A DNA stretch of 15,905 bases. Origin: Chloroflexota bacterium (GTDB lineage: Bacteria; Chloroflexota; Anaerolineae; Promineifilales; Promineifilaceae). A program made the position numbers and the translations under genes. A model generated the notes under the pieces. The model saw nothing but the letters and a program-made list of their open reading frames with translations. It did no database searches and was not told the origin of the DNA. Location: the NCBI GenBank assembly GCA_030599405.1, contig JAUVOB010000001.1:1-15905 (forward strand), given 5' to 3'. Shown piece by piece: positions 507 through 15,678 of the stretch (positions within the stretch are counted from its first letter, which is position 1; each line of letters opens with the position of its first letter).

Positions 507-611
507 TTTACTTGATTGGGTCAGCTTGGGACTATCTAAGCAACCCAGAGCATAGAAAATGCATAACGCCGCTACCCGTCTCGTCTTGATCCAGGTTGCT
601 TGGGGGCATTA

Positions 612-2234
612 ATGAACCGCTCCGGGCTCAGACGGTTGATACGGGTAAGTATCGGATTGCTAATAGTAGCGATCCCAATGCTTGCCTTTTTCTCAACCCA
701 AACATTTCCCACGGCTGAGTATTTGGTTCAGGCGGCGCCGCCGCTTGAATCTAATGCCGTGGCTTTAACGACCCAGGAGACGCAAACGGCTGTAGCTGAG
801 ACTCAAACGTCGTTTGCAGTGACTGTGCAGGCGGCGGGAACCCAGACGGCTGTGGCTGGAACCCAGACGAGCATCGCGCGGACACAAACCGCTGTGGCAT
901 CGACCCAGACAGCCGTAGCCCAGCCATCAAGCACAGCCATATTTGTCGATGCCTTCGAGCCTAACAACACTATCCAGACTGCGTACACTACCGCGCCTGA
1001 TGCGGTCGCGCTCACGAACATCACCTTATGGCCAACTGGCGACATCGATTACTTTAGTTTCTCGGGGAAGGCGGGTTCGGCGTACCAGGTACAGACCAGC
1101 CATCTCACGGCCGGTTTGGACACAGTCCTTACCGTTTACGATACCCAGGGAAATGAGATCGAAACGAACGATGACTACGAGCCCGATAATCGCGCGTCGC
1201 GGGTTACTTTTTCAGCCCACGTGAACGGTTTTTACTTCGCCAAGATCGTTAACATAAACCCCGGCGATCCGGCCAACCTGACCTATCGTTTCCAGGTCCA
1301 GCAGATCCAAGGCACCGCCACTCCGACAGCATTTCCAACAAGTACACGCGTGCCCGGCCCCGATATCTGTGAATACAACGGCGATTTCGACTCAGCTTGT
1401 CTAATTGGTACAGGGCAGCCGCTAGATATGAACTTTGTTCCTCTTCACGGCGAAGGACCTGACAACGATTTCTTCCGGCTTTGGGTGAAAGCGGGCCTTT
1501 ACTATACCTGCCAGTCGTTCGATCTTTCAAGTGTTAATGACACCAACATGATCGTGTACGATCAGAATAGAAACGGCCTGGCTGGCAATGACGACAAGGC
1601 TCCGGGAGATCTGGGCAGTATGGTGAGCGTGCCTGCTACCTATACCGGGTGGTTGTTCATCTTGGTAGGGCCGTATGCACCCCCAGAATACGCCTTGTCG
1701 TACTTATATACCTATAGTATCAGGTGCGATGAGACCGTTCCCACACCGACGCCTACGTCGCCTCCCTATATTCCTCCCCCAAGCAGCGGTGGGACGCGTC
1801 CTCCTACGCCAACGCCTATTGTCTTTCCGACCTTCCCGCCGACACCGACACCCATTACTTTTGTGACGCCTCAGCCAACCCCGAGGCCGATTATTCAGGT
1901 TATCCCGCTTCCAACGAACACGCCGGTTTCAGTATTTCAACCAACGATCGACCTAAATCTCACCGTCTATTTTGATCGGAACGGCAACTTTACGCCCGAG
2001 CTGACCGAAGGTGTGGAGGATGTCGCCGTGACCATCTATGATAACGCCACCGCGGAACTACTGGCCTTTGGCTATACAAATGAAACAGGGGCAATTCGCT
2101 TCGGCGCTTTGGCAGTGTCAGGACCGGTCCGCATCTCAATTCCATTCCTTCAATTTAACCAGGTTGTAACGAGCGATTCGACGATATTCATTCGAATTGC
2201 GCCTATGCAGCCGTTGCCGCCTGGTGGATCATAA
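612..2234 (+). CDS. secreted or membrane-anchored protein with TQT heptad stalk, two PPC-like domains and a C-terminal beta domain
   Basis: Residues 8-30 form a basic-then-hydrophobic segment, either an uncleaved anchor or a signal peptide. Residues about 57-104 are seven-residue repeats of the type T-Q-T-A-V-A-x. Two domains resembling bacterial pre-peptidase C-terminal (PPC) beta-sandwiches follow: about 112-223 (D-x-F-E-P-N-N opening, G-D-I-D-Y-F-S-F core) and about 235-365 (G-P-D-N-D-F-F core). A Pro/Thr-rich linker spans about 366-435. The last 100 residues resemble a CnaB/SdrD-like carboxypeptidase-regulatory fold (V-Y-F-D-R-N-G-N, then G-V-E-D-V-A-V). No catalytic domain is visible, so a structural or ligand-binding surface role is inferred. 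I chose the ATG at 612 because GGGGG lies 6 nt upstream; an in-frame TTG at 600 is the alternative. The next gene begins 1 nt after this stop. Confidence 0.85.
   Translation: MNRSGLRRLIRVSIGLLIVAIPMLAFFSTQTFPTAEYLVQAAPPLESNAVALTTQETQTAVAETQTSFAVTVQAAGTQTAVAGTQTSIARTQTAVASTQTAVAQPSSTAIFVDAFEPNNTIQTAYTTAPDAVALTNITLWPTGDIDYFSFSGKAGSAYQVQTSHLTAGLDTVLTVYDTQGNEIETNDDYEPDNRASRVTFSAHVNGFYFAKIVNINPGDPANLTYRFQVQQIQGTATPTAFPTSTRVPGPDICEYNGDFDSACLIGTGQPLDMNFVPLHGEGPDNDFFRLWVKAGLYYTCQSFDLSSVNDTNMIVYDQNRNGLAGNDDKAPGDLGSMVSVPATYTGWLFILVGPYAPPEYALSYLYTYSIRCDETVPTPTPTSPPYIPPPSSGGTRPPTPTPIVFPTFPPTPTPITFVTPQPTPRPIIQVIPLPTNTPVSVFQPTIDLNLTVYFDRNGNFTPELTEGVEDVAVTIYDNATAELLAFGYTNETGAIRFGALAVSGPVRISIPFLQFNQVVTSDSTIFIRIAPMQPLPPGGS
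780..923 (+). repeat. coding tandem heptad repeat (TQT[AS][VIF]Ax)
   Basis: About seven near-tandem 21-nt units encode T-Q-T-A-V-A-x or T-Q-T-S-F/I-A-x, with one imperfect unit (T-V-Q-A-A-G) in the middle. Nucleotide copies are diverged at third positions, so protein-level selection keeps the period. The period fits a helical stalk between the membrane anchor and the PPC domains. Confidence 0.8.
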
Positions 2235-2235
2235 A

Positions 2236-3654
2236 GTGAATCAAGAAATTCAGGACGTATCTCAGGAACCTCGGGGCGAGATACCTGGGCCAGAAGAGAC
2301 TCAAGAGACAGGCTGGCAAGCTCGCCTTCGACCCTTATTGTCGAATCAGCCGGCGCTGATCGTGGTCATTATTGCCACGGTCGGCAGTTTGGCTTTGCTA
2401 TGCCTTTTTGCATATTTACTCACCAGGTCGGACGAAGAGACGGAACCAACCCCTACTCCTTCGGAGATTATCGAATCGGAAGTTGATACCGATATCTTCG
2501 AGTATGTAGCGGTCAGCGATTCAGGCGCCATAAGCGTTACGATGGAAACCCCGATTTTCATCAGGATTGGCGGTGAGGAGTTTACAGTTCAGGCGGAGGT
2601 TGTTCCCGAGGACGAGCCCTGGGATCCGGAAGTCCCCAATGAGACCACGGCCATTTGGGTATACGGCTCGGTTATCAACTATATTTTTGGCCTCGATAAC
2701 ACGAAGGATAATAAGGAATTACTCGAGAGCATGGCATTGGGGGATGAAATCGTCCTGACCTCGCGAAGCGGCGCCTCAACGACCTTTACTCTAAGCAGCC
2801 GTCAAAGTCTGAGTAGGGCCAATCGTGATACCCTCGCCCAACGCTCACCAGCCGTTACGATCATCCTGGATAGTGACGATCCCGAAGAACTTCGTCTAAC
2901 GGTAAAAGGCAGATACGCAGCATCTGACCTAAAGAATGTTTCTGTAAACGAGCAGGTTGTAGAGTTGGGAGAAACCGCCCAACTCGAGGGACTGCAAATC
3001 ACGGCTAACAGTGTCAGTTATCAAGCCGGTCGAGTTGAGGTTCCTAACGGCTTTATGTTTTACACGGTTGACTACCAGGCCCAGAACGTCGGGGTCGCAC
3101 GCGTCGATTCGGGTCAATTGAACATGGTTCTTATCGACGATTTGGGAAACCAATACGCATTGAATCCGATTGCCTCCCAGCTGGGTAATTATCCGATGCT
3201 AAGCGGCACACTGGAACCTGGAGAGACATCTATCGCCACAGCCGGCTATCAAATTCCTCTCGGATTAAATAGCAGATTTTTACGCTGGCAGGTGTCACGA
3301 CTTGATTCGGGGAGCCAGATTCAGGTAAACATCCCATTCGCCGAACAGCAGGCAGCCGCCCAACAAGCGAACACGCAAATTCAAGAGGCCAACATTTCCG
3401 AAGATGGCAGTAGCCTGATAATTGTCGGGCAGATTACCAACTTTGGGGAACAGGAGTTGATCGTCGACGTTGGCGATCTATCATTGACAAGCCAGGGAAC
3501 TGTCTTCTTGATGTTATCCGTCAATCCTTCATTTCCCTGGCGAGTGGGAGCAGGGCAGACCATCCAGTTCCTGGTCACTTTCCAGAGACCTCTCGCTGAC
3601 ACGGCAGTTTTCACCGTGCTGAATCAATCCTTCCAGCTGACAGGACTACGTTAG
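2236..3654 (+). CDS. single-pass membrane protein with a degenerate sortase-like region and DUF4352-like beta domains
   Basis: A GTG at 2236 begins 1 nt after the preceding TAA, with GGTGGA 7 nt upstream; this fits a coupled start better than the overlapping ATG at 2197. The product is 472 residues: an acidic cytoplasmic tail of about 38 residues, one transmembrane helix (about 39-63), a short T-P-T-P linker, then extracellular domains. Residues about 80-220 resemble a sortase barrel by pattern: W-V-Y-G-S-V, then M-A-L-G-D-E-I-V-L-T, then T-I-I-L-D, then R-L-T-V-K-G-R-Y. The catalytic His and Cys positions are not occupied by His or Cys. Residues about 225-360 look like DUF4352, and about 365-472 like a second Ig-type domain. 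It is probably co-transcribed with the PPC protein and may act with it at the cell surface. The sortase resemblance is inference; the membrane topology is clear. Confidence 0.8.
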   Translation: MNQEIQDVSQEPRGEIPGPEETQETGWQARLRPLLSNQPALIVVIIATVGSLALLCLFAYLLTRSDEETEPTPTPSEIIESEVDTDIFEYVAVSDSGAISVTMETPIFIRIGGEEFTVQAEVVPEDEPWDPEVPNETTAIWVYGSVINYIFGLDNTKDNKELLESMALGDEIVLTSRSGASTTFTLSSRQSLSRANRDTLAQRSPAVTIILDSDDPEELRLTVKGRYAASDLKNVSVNEQVVELGETAQLEGLQITANSVSYQAGRVEVPNGFMFYTVDYQAQNVGVARVDSGQLNMVLIDDLGNQYALNPIASQLGNYPMLSGTLEPGETSIATAGYQIPLGLNSRFLRWQVSRLDSGSQIQVNIPFAEQQAAAQQANTQIQEANISEDGSSLIIVGQITNFGEQELIVDVGDLSLTSQGTVFLMLSVNPSFPWRVGAGQTIQFLVTFQRPLADTAVFTVLNQSFQLTGLR

Positions 3655-4265: not shown

Positions 4266-4342
4266 TGGTCGGGGCAGCGGGATTTGAACCCACGACCTCT
4301 TCAACCCCATTGAAGCGCGCTACCAAGCTGCGCCATGCCCCG
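4266..4342 (-). tRNA. tRNA-Pro (anticodon GGG), CCA encoded
   Basis: The 77-nt cloverleaf reads on the minus strand. A 7-bp acceptor pairs CGGGGCA with TGCCCCG; then a GCGC D-stem, an anticodon stem CTTCA/TGAAG, and a T-arm GTGGG/CCCGC closing TTCAAAT. The anticodon loop is ATGGGGT, giving GGG at positions 34-36, which reads CCC and CCU proline codons. The discriminator base is A and the 3' CCA is in the DNA. No second copy of the 3' end was noticed in the window, so there is no sign of an integrated element here. Confidence 0.96.
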
Positions 4343-4768: not shown

Positions 4769-5629
4769 ATGGAGGTCACAAGAGCTGTTATCGCTGCCGC
4801 CGGTCGGGGCCAACGAACATTGCCCCTCCAAACACTGGTCGACAGCGATGGGACCGAGAAATCTGTTTTATGCATCCTCATCGAGGAGGTATTGCGAGCC
4901 GGCGTAGAAGAGATCTGCTTCGTTGTTCGGCCTGGTGATGAAGTACCATATGCGCAAGAAGCAGCGAAATATGGCGGCCGAATTCACTTTGTACACCAGG
5001 AAGAGCCATTGGGGCATGGGCATGCCGTCTACTGTGCCCGGAATTTTGTCGGAAACTGGCCTTTTCTCCACCTTGTAGGCGATCATCTATATGTCAGTCA
5101 CAGCCGCGATAGCTGCACCCAACGCCTGGTGCGGGTGGCCCAGAGTGAAGCTTGCTCGGTGTCGACCGTACAAGCTACGCGGGAAAATTACCTGCCCTAT
5201 TATGGCGCTGTCGGTGGGCAGCGAATCAGGGAGAAGGCCGATATATACCGGGTGGAAAGCGTCATCGAAAAGCCCACGCCAACGATTGCTGAGCAACGCC
5301 TTATGGTTCCAGGTCTTCGTGCAGGGCATTACCTGTGTTTCTTTGGCATGCACGTGCTGATGCCGGCCATATTTGATATTCTGGAGGAGCAGGTTGGGGC
5401 CGGCGACGGGCAGATTGAAGTCACACTGGCCGATGCGCTCTCGGAATTAGCCCGGCGCGAACAATATCTGGCCCTGGAGATGCACGATCGGCGATATGAT
5501 ATTGGCGTTCGGTATGGCTTGATGACCGCGCAATTGGCCCTAGCCCTAAGCGGCCAGGATCGCGACCTTGTCCTAACCCAGCTTCTAGAACTCCTCGCTG
5601 GGCGTGAACTTGGCCGGAAGGCTGATTGA
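4769..5629 (+). CDS. GalU-like nucleotidyltransferase (UTP:sugar-1-phosphate uridylyltransferase-like)
   Basis: The 286-residue product has the layout of NTP_transferase/GalU enzymes, which make an NDP-sugar and pyrophosphate from an NTP and a sugar-1-phosphate. Visible motifs are the nucleotide loop A-A-G-R-G-Q-R (residues 10-16), E-P-L-G-H-G-H-A (79-86), the metal-binding G-D (D105), E-K-P (167-169) and Y-D-I-G (D244). Unlike standard GalU, the segment after the loop lacks the usual K-x-x-P-K-E signature; it reads L-V-D-S-D-G-T-E-K instead, with only K31 retained. Substrate or nucleotide specificity may therefore differ, or activity may be reduced. GGAAGGGG lies 4-6 nt before the ATG. The next gene starts 10 nt after the stop (or overlaps it), so both genes are probably one operon acting on the same sugar. 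Confidence 0.85.
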
Positions 5630-5639
5630 AAAACTAATC

Positions 5640-8600
5640 ATGAGCCACCTGATTGAGATAATCACTGCCTCAGATCCAGATATCCGAAATCGTTCGTTGG
5701 ATGCCTTCTGTCGCACCGCTTCAAGGGAACTATTGTTAGCTGAATGCACCGCTCTCGACGAATTCCGTCGACAGAGCGACAATCTCTACGAGCGTGTCCG
5801 TGCTCTATTCTTCCTGTACGCCATTCATCGTTTTCACTTACCGCTTAAAGAAGGTATGGATCAGGGGGGCATCATACCCTTTGACGGTTACATGAACTTG
5901 CTGAACCGCCGATATCAGGAAGCGATCGAGGTGTTCGTTGCCGAACAGGTCGGGGAGGGGCCCAACGACAGCATATCCAGCGCTCTGGCTGTAGCTTATC
6001 GAGGCTTGGGCTTTCAAACGCTAGCTGACCAGGTGCGTCGAAGCGTCCGTTCGGTATGCGGCAACCAGTGGATGTTTCGCACGGGTCATCCGGCCGATCA
6101 CCCATTACGCGTCCGGCATGAGCTGAGACGTCGCCAGAACGATATGTTTCCCATCCTGCGGGAAGTGACCCCGGTGCGAATGGATCTCACCCACAGTGGT
6201 TGGAGTGATATTTTCTTCTTGGGCATGGATTTTCCAGAAGGGGCGCGGGTAATTAACACGTCCATTGATCTAAGCGTGCGCCATAATGGCCGATCTACTC
6301 CACCTGCACCACCCGTGGAAGCTTACTTCCGGGTCATCGATGAACCGCTTTTACGCCTGACAAGCGTCGACCTAGGGGCAACGGCCGTCGTTACTTCCCT
6401 ATCAGAGATATTTGATTTTGCCCGTGATTACCTTGGTTTGCTCAAAGCCGCGGTGATCGCCTCCGGCATTGTACCCCCCGGCATGGAGGGCGCAGGCCAA
6501 CCATTGGCCGATCTGCTTGCCCAGCTGGTAGGACCGGGATATGGCATAGAAATAGTCAGCCGGGTGAATGACATACCAAAGGGTTCTCGTTTGGCGGTGT
6601 CCACGAGCTTACTAGCCAGCCTCATCGCCGTCTGCATGCGGGCGACGGGACAGGCCGAAAATCTTACGGGAAAACTTAGCGAGAATGAACGCAGGCTAGT
6701 GGCGGCTCGGGCAATCCTGGGTGAGTGGCTGGGGGGATCCGGAGGTGGCTGGCAGGATTCAGGCGGTGTTTGGCCGAGTATGAAGCTGATTAGTGGAGAA
6801 CTTTCCGGCCCATCTGATCCGGAATACGGCACAAGCCGGGGGCGGTTACTGCCCAGTCACCGAATTTTCACGGACGATGAAGTGTCGGCTGAAACGCGTC
6901 GCCAATTGCAGGACAGCCTGGTTCTCGTTCATGGGGGTATGGCCCAAGATGTAGGTCCGATCCTGGAAATGGTAACGGAAAAATATCTGCTTCGATCGGA
7001 GGCGGAATGGGCTGGACGACAGGAGGCGATAAGCATCCTGGACGAAGTGGTTGAACTTCTACGCCAGGGCGATGTGCAGGCCATTGGCAATGCGACGGAC
7101 CGCAACTTCCACGGACCGATCCAGACGATCATTCCCTGGACCGGCAATTTGTACACTGACCTGCTCAACCAACGGGTGAAGGCGGAGTTCGGCGACGATT
7201 TTTGGGGTTTCTGGATGTTAGGTGGCATGGCCGGCGGCGGAATGGGTTTCATTTTTAATCCGCTACGCAAAGAAGAGGCTCAAGACCGATTGCAGCATAT
7301 CATGAGCGAGACGAAGCAGGAGCTTGAACGGGCTGTTCCATTTGCGATGGAGCCTGTTGTTTACGATTTCTCCATAAACGAGCTGGGCACCTATGCCGAG
7401 CTATCGGTTGGCGATGCAGCCTTGATGCCGCCCGGCTATTATGCCCTTATAGTGCCGAGTCTCTTGCGGATGGATATGGGGCGTCTTCCACTATTCCGTC
7501 GTGCAGAATTAGATCGTTTTGGCGAGGCATGTCGCAATGAACCCGAATTGGGGGGCATGGTCCAGATGCTGTTCGATCGCTTGCTGCCGCGAGAGCTTGA
7601 CGATGGCGGCTCGGTCCAAGATCTCGACACGCTCCTGAATGAATTTGGCTTCGACCGCATGCAGCACGAGCAGATACGCGCCGATCTGCGCGGCGGCCGG
7701 ATCGGTCTGGCCAAGAATCGACTGCCCGTCAATAGTCAGATCGAAGATGTTACTCCGGAAGATTTGTATGATGCCACCGGTGGTATGGCCGAGGTATGGC
7801 ATGACCTGGGTACGGATGCCATGGCCAACGGCGCAGTAGCTGTCGTGTCCTTGGCTGGAGGTGCGGGAAGCCGCTGGACCAAGGGCGCAGGCGTTGTAAA
7901 AGCCCTGAATCCTTTCGCGAAGTTGGGTGGCGTACATCGAAACTTCGTGGAGGTGCATCTTGCCAAGAGTCGTCGCATGGGACGGAAAGTCGGAAAGACA
8001 ATACCCCACGTCATCACAACCAGTTATCTGACTCATGATCCAATCGCATCTTACCTGGCCCGTGAGGACAACTATCACTATCCAGGACCCCTTTTACTCT
8101 CTCCCGGTAGGGTTGTTGGCCTGCGGATGATTCCCATGGTACGGGATCTTCGTTTTGCCTGGGAGGAGACGGCTCAGCAGCTCCTTGATGAACAGGCCCA
8201 GAAGGTGGTCGATGGCCTGCACAATGCGCTGATCGGCTGGGCGAGACAGATGGGAGAAGGAAATGACTATTCTGATAACCTACCGATGCAGTGTCTGCAT
8301 CCAGTAGGACACTGGTATGAGATTCCCAACCTCATGCGTAATGGCGTATTGGCCCGATTGCTGTCCGTTCGGCCGGAACTTCAATACCTCATGGTCCACA
8401 ACATCGATACATTGGGTGTGGACGTCGACCCGGCGATTCTTGGGTCTCACATCGACAGAGGCTCGGCCTGGACGTCGGAAGTTATCACCCGCCAGATAGA
8501 GGATAGAGGCGGCGGATTGGCCCGAGTCGACGGCCATGTTCGCCTGATTGAAGGACTGGCCCTACCCCGCGAGGAAATTGAATTCGATCTTTCTTACTAT

Positions 8601-8960
8601 AACACTAACACTTACTGGATATCCATTGACCGGCTGTTGGAACTGTTTGGTCTTACTCGCGCTGAACTTGACGATGAGGTACTTGTGGCCACGGCCGTCC
8701 GAAAGCTAGCTACCAGAATGCCCACCTATATCACGATCAAGGATGTAAAGAAGCGTTGGGGACACGGGCAAGAAGATATCTACCCCGTAACCCAATTCGA
8801 AAAACTGTGGGGAGATATGACCGCTTTGCCCGAGATGGACTGCTCCTATGTCGTTGTTCCCAGGCTGCGCGGGCAACAGTTGAAAGAGGTCGCGCACCTC
8901 GATGGCTGGCTTCGCGATGGATCGGCTACCTACCTGGAATCTCTGTGTGAGTGGGGGTGA
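5640..8960 (+). CDS. fusion of a GHMP sugar kinase-like (fucokinase-like) module and a UDPGP-type sugar-1-phosphate uridylyltransferase module
   Basis: The product is about 1,106 residues. Residues 1-175 are largely helical with no recognised family. Residues about 176-590 resemble the GHMP kinase half of L-fucokinase: [11 protein letters not shown] (180-190), a P-K-G-S ATP loop (313-316), G-G-G-W-Q-D (368-373) and the C-terminal G-G-M-A-G-G-G (528-534). After a linker (G-L-A-K-N-R-L-P near 690), residues about 730-1106 match UDPGP pyrophosphorylases: L-A-G-G-A-G-S-R (738-745), H-N-I-D-T-L-G (920-926), E-V-I-T-R (947-951) and N-T-N-T-Y-W (988-993). The expected role is phosphorylating a sugar at C1 and converting it to a UDP-sugar in the cytoplasm, but the ATP loop lacks its usual glycines (S-R-L-A-V). 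ATG 5640 was chosen because it follows the previous stop by 10 nt; it has no clear ribosome binding site, and an in-frame GTG at 5604 overlapping the previous gene is possible. The sugar cannot be named from sequence. Confidence 0.82.
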
Positions 8961-9430: not shown

Positions 9431-9935
9431 GATCGACTATTGCTCGGTAAACTACACAGAGGATTTTCCGTTATTTGCCGAACGGGTGTCAGAACGCATA
9501 GCGTGAGTGCGAGAGAATCCGATCGTAACGGACGAGCCAGGTAAAGACGATCAAATGGACATGAGCGCGATGCCCTGGGTGTCTTTCACCAGCGTTATGC
9601 ATCCGCTTCAAATGAACCCTCCTGATTCTGTGCCGAGGATCGCCTGGGGGAAGGTCTTCGAAGAAAGGCTTATCCTGAAGATGCCGCTGAGTGTTCAGGT
9701 CCACCACGCCCTTCTGGATGGTATACACCTCGGGAGGTATTATTCACTTGTGCAGGAGTACCTTGACCATCCGGAGAACTTATTTGTTGACCGTTTGGGG
9801 CTTAGTAATGTAATCCATTCCCGCCTTCCACTGAGCACGTTGACTTCAGCATCCAACCGGGGTTCGCAGGCTACCCGGGCATCAATTGGAAAGCAAAACT
9901 TAGGGGCTAAGGCAGGGGACAGGGGATTCGTCTAG
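9431..9935 (+). pseudogene. chloramphenicol O-acetyltransferase (CatA-like) remnant with frameshift, stop and 5' truncation
   Basis: The segment 9510-9790 encodes the C-terminal part of a trimeric chloramphenicol acetyltransferase: P-W-V-S-F-T-S, then S-V-P-R-I-A-W-G-K, then the catalytic V-H-H-A-L-L-D-G-I-H (His codons 9702-9707, Asp codon 9717). Family members are about 215 residues and use this His to deprotonate the drug's hydroxyl for acetyl-CoA transfer. Upstream, homologous-looking sequence continues in two pieces: one frame gives Y-C-S-V-N-Y-T-E-D-F-P-L-F-A-E up to 9481. One extra A in the AAA run at 9480-9482 then shifts into R-V-S-E-R-I-A, which ends at an in-frame TGA (9504-9506). 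The first half of the enzyme is missing. After about 9790 the frame runs into unrelated sequence until 9935. An expressed 142-residue fragment from GTG 9507 would lack the fold needed for activity. Confidence 0.8.
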
Positions 9936-13833: not shown

Positions 13834-14030
13834 CCGGTTAAGGGAGCGGAAAGAAAGGCAATCATCTGTGAAACTCTGGTATTCAGATGGCGCCGTGACC
13901 AGGCTCAAGTTCCTATATGTTGCTCGACTATGATAGAATATATACATCGTGCACGCCGACAAAACGTAGTGGTTTTCACACCTTCAATAGAAAAATCCAA
14001 GGTTGTGACGGGCGATTAGGACCGCGATTT

Positions 14031-14951
14031 ATGGCTGAAGTAGGAAGTCAACAGGCAAAAGTGCTGGCGGTCGTCAATAGAAAGGGGGGAGTAGGCAAGA
14101 CGACCACGGCTGTCAATCTGGCCCACGGCCTCTCTCGCAAACTTATTCAACGAGTTAGGCCCAAAGATCTCGACCGCGTTCCCGATCTGGACCACCTTTA
14201 CCAGTACAGGGATCGTCACTATTATGTTGAAGGGCATGTGCTGCTAATCGACCTTGATCCCCAAGGCCATTGTTCCCGAGCTCTGGGTGTAGAGACCGGA
14301 GATGCCGATGTCGGTGAGGTGCTCCTGGGGCGCCAATATCTTAACAGGGCTGTCGTACCAGCCGACAAATCAGCTGAACGCCTTCCACGACCGAATTTGT
14401 GGTTACTACCGTCCTCGGACAACCTAGAAGATGCCAAAGACAATCTGCGCAGCCGGTCATTTGAATACATCGTAACCGGACATGAGAATAGAGACGAGTG
14501 GCTGCTCTCGGTTATGCGACAGCGAATCGGCTTTGCTTCTGATCGATTCCTATTCATCATCTTGGATTGCGCGCCAGGATTGGACGTGTTTGCCCATGCT
14601 GTATACCAATTCGCCGAAGCGGCGATAGTCCCGGTCAAACCGGATTTCTTGAGCATGGTTGGCACATCTCATAAGATTAGTGATATTCGCGACGTCCAAT
14701 TGCGAGGGATAAATATCCAGATTCATACAATAGTGCCTACTCTATGCGTTGAGCGGCAAAAACTCGACAGGGAGATGGTTAGCGAATTAAAGCGACTTCA
14801 TGGTGACCTTGTAACCGATCCTATACCTCGAAGCCAACTCGTTGTTGAGGCGACGGCGAATCAAAAGACAGTCTTCGAATACGATCCTTTAATGCGCAAC
14901 CCGGCAACGGCCGCATACCAAAGATTGGTAGACAGAGTGTACTATGGCTAG
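14031..14951 (+). CDS. orphan ParA/Soj-family ATPase
   Basis: The 306-residue product has a deviant Walker A, K-G-G-V-G-K-T-T (K18 signature lysine, K23), Walker A' L-I-D-L-D-P-Q-G (D74, D76), Walker B F-I-I-L-D-C-A-P, and the ParA C-terminal segment (I-P-R-S-Q-L, then V-F-E-Y-D-P). Such ATPases dimerise on ATP, bind DNA or membrane non-specifically and position chromosomes, plasmids or protein cargo. The gap between Walker A and A' is about 20-25 residues longer than usual, with a charged Arg/Asp-rich insert (about 36-66). ATG 14031 is preferred over ATG 13917 because it places Walker A at the usual distance from the N-terminus and has AGGA 9 nt upstream. No parB or parS is seen. The 3' end overlaps the coiled-coil gene by 8 nt, so that protein is the likely partner. 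Confidence 0.9.
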   Translation: MAEVGSQQAKVLAVVNRKGGVGKTTTAVNLAHGLSRKLIQRVRPKDLDRVPDLDHLYQYRDRHYYVEGHVLLIDLDPQGHCSRALGVETGDADVGEVLLGRQYLNRAVVPADKSAERLPRPNLWLLPSSDNLEDAKDNLRSRSFEYIVTGHENRDEWLLSVMRQRIGFASDRFLFIILDCAPGLDVFAHAVYQFAEAAIVPVKPDFLSMVGTSHKISDIRDVQLRGINIQIHTIVPTLCVERQKLDREMVSELKRLHGDLVTDPIPRSQLVVEATANQKTVFEYDPLMRNPATAAYQRLVDRVYYG

Positions 14952-15678
14952 AAAATCAAAATCGAGTGACCAGGATATGGCCCAAGATCCATTGAAAGGA
15001 GTTGCTACCTTCGACCCTGAAGAGGAAAAGAAAAAGGGCAGTGTGACAGCTATACCGGTTTCACCCTTGTCGCCCCTGGGGACTGCACCGGATGCCCGGG
15101 GAACAGAACTCCAACCTGTCGAAGTTGTATTGCTTGAAGCAAACAATCGGATCAAGCAACTCCAATCAAAACTGGCTGACGAACGAGAGAGGAGAAGGGA
15201 GCTTGAAAGCCAGCATTACAAGCTAGAGGCACTCGCCTCGCAGAGCGAGCAATTTACAGAAGAACTCGAGATGGAGCGGGGCAGAAGAAGGGAATTGGAG
15301 CATCAGAACACTGTCATAGAGACAGAGCTGAAGCATTCACGGGCCATGTTGGCGGATCTTGAAGGGGAGCGCGAAGCACGCCTTGAGCTAGAGCGAAAAA
15401 TAGGCTCTTTAGAAGTCCGGGCTCAAAACACAATGGAGCTGGCAGAGGAAGTAGCGGACGCGCGCGAGGCTAGACTTGAACTTGAACGAGATAAGGCGAC
15501 ATTAGAGATTGAGGTGGTGCATGCCCAGAAACTCGAAGCTCTGTTAGTTGAGGAACGCCAGTCTCGAGCAAACGCCCAGATGAGAGCCTCAACTGCCGAG
15601 GCGAAGCTTGCCCAAATGGAGGGGGAGAGGTCCGCTCGCGACAGTAAAAATCGAGGTCGCTTCTGGAGCAGGGGATAA
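14944..15678 (+). CDS. coiled-coil protein, probable ParA partner
   Basis: The 244-residue product has a charged, disordered N-terminus (about 1-55). A continuous coiled coil (about 57-235) follows, rich in Glu, Arg, Leu and Ala, with a recurring E-R-x-x-R-x-E-L-E module (near residues 78, 115, 142, 175). It ends in a basic tail R-F-W-S-R-G. There is no transmembrane segment or enzyme motif. The ATG overlaps the last 8 nt of the ParA gene (ATGGCTAG), so translation should be coupled and production matched. By analogy with other ParA/MinD systems, it may be a scaffold, adaptor or cargo-binding partner; this is inference. No recognised family name applies. Confidence 0.85.
   Translation: MARKSKSSDQDMAQDPLKGVATFDPEEEKKKGSVTAIPVSPLSPLGTAPDARGTELQPVEVVLLEANNRIKQLQSKLADERERRRELESQHYKLEALASQSEQFTEELEMERGRRRELEHQNTVIETELKHSRAMLADLEGEREARLELERKIGSLEVRAQNTMELAEEVADAREARLELERDKATLEIEVVHAQKLEALLVEERQSRANAQMRASTAEAKLAQMEGERSARDSKNRGRFWSRG

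Follow-up and report, generated by a model that had tools for sequence, protein, structure and literature searches.

A predicted fusion of a GHMP-fold sugar kinase and a UDPGP-family pyrophosphorylase, with its domains in the reverse order of FKP

Which nucleotide sugar would be made by a protein that carries a sugar kinase ahead of a UDPGP-family pyrophosphorylase? The question is raised by a gene in the 15,905-nucleotide stretch analysed here (the window), the beginning of contig JAUVOB010000001.1 from a Chloroflexota bacterium whose genome is a draft of 453 contigs with 69.94% completeness. The gene (5640–8960; plus strand, as are all features below unless stated) is a single unbroken open reading frame (ORF) of 1106 codons plus a stop, and its assignment draws on Pfam, NCBIfam and PDB sequence matches and on a structure model. 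A preliminary description had read it as a kinase and a UDPGP module in one polypeptide, in the opposite order to the fucose-salvage enzyme FKP. The Pfam UDPGP match, a match to the FKP model and a confident AlphaFold2 model of the 1106-amino-acid protein, with a GHMP fold in the kinase half and a UDPGP fold in the C-terminal half, confirmed this. We propose that the protein is probably a bifunctional sugar 1-kinase/sugar-1-phosphate nucleotidyltransferase, with a UDP-sugar as the probable product. The kinase half would phosphorylate a free monosaccharide at C1 with a phosphate donor, and in the UDPGP half the resulting sugar 1-phosphate would react with a nucleotide, UTP being the likeliest, to yield a nucleoside diphosphate sugar and pyrophosphate. 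We infer activity in both halves, sequential action of the two and UTP as the nucleotide.

Two predicted catalytic halves in one polypeptide

The protein begins with a helical domain that gave no significant fold match (5640–6134, residues 1–165), followed by the GHMP-fold kinase half (6153–7412, residues about 172–591) and the UDPGP-family half (7593–8957, residues 652–1106). The kinase end of the NCBIfam FKP model (NF009948) matched the middle of the protein with an E-value of 1.8e-19, scoring 69 bits against a cut-off of 721 bits, and the best PDB sequence match of this half was the FKP kinase (4.2e-11). The Pfam scan, which the preliminary description had suggested for both modules, recovered UDPGP and reported no GHMP model, so that Pfam alone could not confirm the GHMP call, which came from the FKP match and the structure model. 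By structure comparison the fold also matched heptokinase WcbL and related proteins (4usk, 3k85), which share the kinase fold, the WcbL type being single-domain. In the kinase-half tree, built without GHMP_L144, which lacks motif 1, the family formed a clade of its own (100/100).

To compare catalytic residues we relied on FKP. In the FKP study (PMC11982464), R592, E751 and D762 have roles in catalysis, fucose is bound by W599, D601, T602, Q761 and D762, and loop 712–720 holds the ATP phosphates. Residues were counted in 114 aligned family members, corresponding to 111 distinct ones because three genomes were reached twice (L002/L021, L059/L097 and L077/L114); one sequence with a stop (L081) and two present as pieces (L012 and L093) lay outside this set. 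In motif 1 (6177–6209, residues 180–190), R180, W188 and D190 aligned to FKP R592, W599 and D601 in 114/114. The catalytic segment (6720–6758, residues 361–373) supplied both the catalytic aspartate and the glutamate: E362, Q372 and D373, aligned to E751, Q761 and D762, were kept in 113 of the 114, with one gap. S321, aligned to the metal-ligand serine of FKP, was kept in every member, as was G532–G534 in glycine-rich motif 3 (7221–7247, residues 528–536), which is extended relative to the FKP loci compared. Apart from T602, the FKP-aligned catalytic and fucose-contact residues were retained in divergent members too.

The ATP loop (6576–6605, P313–T322) is rewritten. The consensus in GHMP kinases is glycine-rich, of the G-(L)-G-S-S kind. 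The family reads GSRLAVST (GSRFAVST in 2/114), compared with GSGLGTSS in the 12 FKP loci: R317, A319, V320, S321 and T322 were invariant and position 318 was L in 112 and F in 2, so that the hydroxyl pair is kept and two glycines are lost throughout. As the standard loop is missing, we refer to a GHMP-fold half and not simply to a GHMP kinase; it probably works as one. Comparison sequences were picked by the standard-loop pattern, found in 12/12 FKP loci and 9/17 others (L135, L136, L139, L141, L142, L143, L145 and L146 had no match and were not compared), and since the pattern itself demands that loop, they say nothing about its frequency.

The second half fell within the UDPGP family (PF01704; 1.7e-13, 50.5 bits, cut-off 22 bits), which bears out the earlier reading of a UDPGP module, here in place of FKP's own pyrophosphorylase, and it also matched eukaryotic-type UDP-glucose pyrophosphorylases (3.6e-10). 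We aligned it to bacterial proteins, 4 of them UGP-like and 9 UAP/USP-like, labels that we assigned from Pfam score and motifs; three further candidates yielded no ORF to the search pattern. The half retains the (A/G)-G-x-G loop, K754, the GH pair, N921-x-D923, E971, N988, K1034, E1054 and K1082, and N921, E971 and N988 agreed best with the UGP-like group. K1082 (8883–8885) aligned to the lysine of the UGP-like 'PVK' motif in 114/114. The tree likewise placed this half with UGP-like proteins, apart from the UAP/USP-like ones (100/99). Several motifs have nevertheless diverged from those of the UGP-like proteins compared. The nucleotide loop (7851–7901, residues 738–754) is two residues longer, with R745, W746 and K754 in 114/114; PPGHG has mostly become PVGHW across the family (8301–8315, residues 888–892); and N-x-D-N has mostly become N-x-D-T, within H-N-I-D-T in the window (8397–8411, residues 920–924). 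Compared with UDP-glucose pyrophosphorylases of known structure (Ugp1p, 2i5k; plant UGPase, 2icx), the C-terminal half shares the fold and the common residues, and differs in altered PGHG, N-x-D-N and NTNN motifs, in the two additional loop residues and in the attached kinase half.

The architecture resembles two characterised fusions. Like FKP of Bacteroides fragilis (PDB 9iit, 9iip, 5yys), the protein joins a GHMP kinase to a sugar-1-phosphate nucleotidyltransferase and shares the kinase fold, the catalytic residues and most sugar contacts. FKP, however, has its pyrophosphorylase first, and this is GTP-using and of another family, whereas the protein described here has the kinase first, a UDPGP half second, a rewritten ATP loop and an additional helical domain at the N-terminus, and its gene has a GalU-like partner. 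The zebrafish glucuronokinase/putative UDP-glucuronate pyrophosphorylase DrGKUP (PMC3938481) also combines a GHMP sugar 1-kinase with a nucleotidyltransferase in one polypeptide directed at a UDP-sugar, but its nucleotidyltransferase is N-terminal, about 260 amino acids long and of bacterial type, with the kinase C-terminal. The kinase thus comes last in both fusions (PMC11982464, PMC3938481). We found no description of the kinase-first order or of its family in the open-licence literature searched and, as far as found there, the parts are known and the combination and the kinase loop are new.

A GalU-like partner and a patchy, widespread family

The fused gene starts 10 bases past a gene for a GalU-like nucleotidyltransferase on the same strand (4769–5629, 286 amino acids; Pfam NTP_transferase, 1.8e-11), which matched the NCBIfam galU model (TIGR01099) at 3e-33 and 115.5 bits, against a cut-off of 326.8 bits. 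The preliminary description had pointed to this neighbour, and it turned out to be a conserved partner: a GalU-like gene lay directly upstream on the same strand in 109/117 loci (106/114 once the three doubly reached genomes were removed), with a median of 29 nucleotides between the tblastn matches. Six of the eight remaining loci had less than 1 kb of upstream DNA (L012, L019, L035, L037, L075 and L089), and two (L076 and L087) had no GalU-like gene next door. A close copy of the partner (E 1.3e-93 or better) was present in 10/10 genomes searched, including those of L076, L087 and L037. Among 13 further loci, counted without the repeat genomes L182 and L192 (L183, whose values equal those of L090, may be another repeat), the partner was found at 9 and was absent at L185, L188, L189 and L191; some Planctomycetota thus carry the fusion without it. 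As the partner is missing in some of these further loci and genomes, the pairing, though strong, has exceptions, and it is the fused protein that stays constant.

GalU enzymes carry the signature G-x-G-T-R. In an alignment of 103 partner sequences, from which rows with stops (for example L071) or far from full length were left out, this motif was not kept: the second glycine was present in 21/103 and the T position was Q in 95/103. In contrast to these positions, D105, E167, K168 and R242 were identical in 103/103. Its probable role is that of another nucleotidyltransferase or of a regulatory partner in the same pathway. No conserved third neighbour emerged from 210 flanking ORFs (at most two of 130–900 amino acids per side), the largest shared family being confined to 5 related Caldilineaceae loci. 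In a wider ORF clustering of 80 loci (L013–L092), a family found only on the opposite strand occurred in 26 loci and was interpreted as antisense shadow ORFs; after it came a family that is oxidoreductase-like by eye, in 6 loci.

The preliminary description had called the layout unfamiliar and had advised looking for the same order behind the same neighbour. That search recovered full-length relatives in several phyla, so the layout is that of a widespread family. Among 5.8 billion proteins, at least 8000 clusters matched at E 0.001 or better, and the best 120 of these, except the query, were 72–94% identical; a contig scan confirmed at least 585 encoding stretches, of which 80 were kept. The nearest relatives of the window gene, among the matches listed and in the tree, were from Chloroflexota. 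In evenly drawn genome samples, where each count includes its own seed and phylum names follow the seeds' record titles, matches occurred in 12/400 genomes for Chloroflexota (E 1e-30 or better; one of these, G301, is a fragment of 99 residues). With a threshold of E 1e-60 they occurred in 18/194 for Verrucomicrobia, 6/198 for Bacteroidota, 2/199 for Acidobacteriota and 15/199 for Planctomycetota. This amounts to a patchy 53/1190, mostly at 54–76% identity, with some of the Planctomycetota sample down to 43–49%. As an 80-member tree grouped largely by phylum, with Chloroflexota and Planctomycetota each split, we rejected rampant gene transfer; on this tree, early spread with later loss seems the likelier source of the patchiness.

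Relatives are present in Chloroflexota, Verrucomicrobiota, Planctomycetota, Acidobacteriota, Bacteroidota and others, and the NCBI names among the matches listed describe a single half. 'UTP--glucose-1-phosphate uridylyltransferase' was attached to 15/119 relatives among the best matches listed (P0010, P0022, P0035 and 12 others), hiding the kinase half. Some copies are irregular. In the cultured Bacteroidota Hymenobacter volaticus, a 53% identical copy on plasmid unnamed4 (L093, 9001–12327) lies behind a GalU-like gene; it is distributed over two or more reading frames and seems to be broken. At L185 (956–5644, minus strand; Planctomycetota-sample genome G1188) both halves are in frame and separated by a TAG, with a linking stretch some 295 codons longer than that of the window gene; this is either a naturally split version or a gene that has been disrupted. 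A 619-amino-acid kinase-half protein (P0159) and a 514-amino-acid UDPGP-half protein (P0311) come from contigs of equal length (213,657) and may represent a single locus in which each half has its own ORF.

Candidate sugars and competing explanations

The residues of the kinase pocket suggest an L-fucose-like sugar (L-fucose, L-galactose or D-arabinose), and the second half suggests a UGP-like, that is, glucose-like, substrate. UGP enzymes act on alpha-D-glucose 1-phosphate. FKP forms beta-L-fucose 1-phosphate, which leaves the closest relatives of the two halves with no shared intermediate. Because these relatives differ on the sugar, at least one half has probably shifted in specificity. This mismatch weighs against the proposed bifunctional enzyme, and so do several other observations. 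The ATP loop departs from that of FKP at two glycines in 114/114, which leaves ATP use not assured. FKP T602, which contacts the C3 hydroxyl, is replaced by I191 in 114/114. The kinase half joins FKP only weakly in the tree (86/66), with 5.5 changes per column along the connecting stem and a long-branch warning. N988 is S in L185, the most divergent member. The partner gave no match at E 1e-5 in 5/8 further genomes (G1042, G1147, G1188, G1032 and G1176), and neither the flanking ORFs nor the 80-locus clustering contained a third gene that would name the pathway.

The first alternative is a second route to GDP-L-fucose through beta-L-fucose-1-phosphate, in effect an FKP with its parts reordered. 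The kinase half speaks for it, with equivalents of R592, W599, D601, E751, Q761 and D762 kept and the FKP kinase as its best PDB sequence match. We consider it unlikely, as T602 is replaced and the second half is UGP-like and not FKP's guanylyltransferase. The distribution of true FKP, scored over its model cut-off, also bears on it: FKP occurred in 9/35 carriers of the fusion (8/18 in the Verrucomicrobia sample, 1/6 in Bacteroidota and 0/11 in Chloroflexota) and in 0/45 non-carriers (p 3e-4), the latter being the first ones listed and not matched for genome size. With sub-threshold matches (E <1e-100) included, the counts were 10/35 and 3/45 (p 0.013), and the association may in part reflect genome size. 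Because both coexist in 9/35 carriers, a general replacement of FKP was rejected, and the fusion is not simply an FKP substitute, at least outside Chloroflexota; a redundant GDP-fucose route is unlikely in those nine genomes. As no Chloroflexota carrier has FKP, the argument carries less weight in the phylum of the window, and the absence there would suit the GDP-L-fucose route. The earlier suggestion of a sugar other than fucose is therefore borne out in part: the UGP-like half and the coexistence speak against plain GDP-fucose salvage, the retained kinase contacts speak for an L-fucose-like sugar, and for Chloroflexota the coexistence argument does not apply. Replacement of GalU was likewise rejected, as canonical GalU over its cut-off did not differ between carriers (5/35) and non-carriers (4/45).

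Alternatively, the UDPGP half might be the sole enzyme, a UDP-glucose pyrophosphorylase, with the kinase half a degenerate sensor or scaffold whose ATP loop is broken. The change from GSGLGTSS to GSR(L/F)AVST in 114/114 and the NCBI uridylyltransferase naming would fit. Dead kinases, however, usually lose their catalytic residues, and here the general base D373, E362 (113/114, one gap), R180 and S321 are all kept, which makes a dead kinase quite improbable.

A more specific version of the bifunctional enzyme would yield a UDP-linked L-fuco sugar (of the UDP-L-fucose, UDP-L-galactose or UDP-D-arabinose type), with an unusual phosphate donor for the arginine-bearing kinase loop, conceivably the second half's own pyrophosphate. 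This is a long shot. We know of no proven biosynthetic enzyme for a UDP-linked L-fuco-configured sugar. Genes in a Clostridium perfringens capsule locus are labelled as UDP-L-fucose makers (PMC5964661), a label for which no assay was seen in the part of that source consulted.

A kinase acting on another substrate such as a heptose phosphate, with the fusion serving heptose or glycoconjugate synthesis, is the least probable: GW(S/T)D and GGGWQD are common to the kinase half and FKP loci, whereas 8 comparable single-domain GHMP proteins had GGGTD (7) or GGWTD (1) in motif 1 and none had GGGWQD. Motif 1 of WcbL-type heptokinases is not known to carry the tryptophan.

If the bifunctional sugar 1-kinase/nucleotidyltransferase is what the gene encodes, it would constitute a one-polypeptide sugar-salvage route, built from different parts in an order opposite to that of FKP. 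Enzymologists would have reason to study a kinase whose ATP loop is invariant yet non-standard, and nucleotide-sugar production would benefit from a compact enzyme that performs both steps.

Other features of the window

Upstream of the GalU-like gene lie two adjoining proteins with PPC and DUF4352 domains (600–3654), by eye secreted or membrane-anchored, and a tRNA-Pro (GGG) on the minus strand (4266–4342 by ARAGORN, 4269–4342 by Rfam). Downstream of the fusion, a 142-amino-acid ORF (9507–9932) resembles the chloramphenicol acetyltransferase family in its C-terminal third alone (Pfam CAT, model positions 136–202 of 205) and looks like a remnant. Further on, a ParA-like ATPase gene (13917–14951) overlaps by 8 bases with the next gene (14944–15678), whose product is by eye rich in charged, coiled-coil-like sequence.
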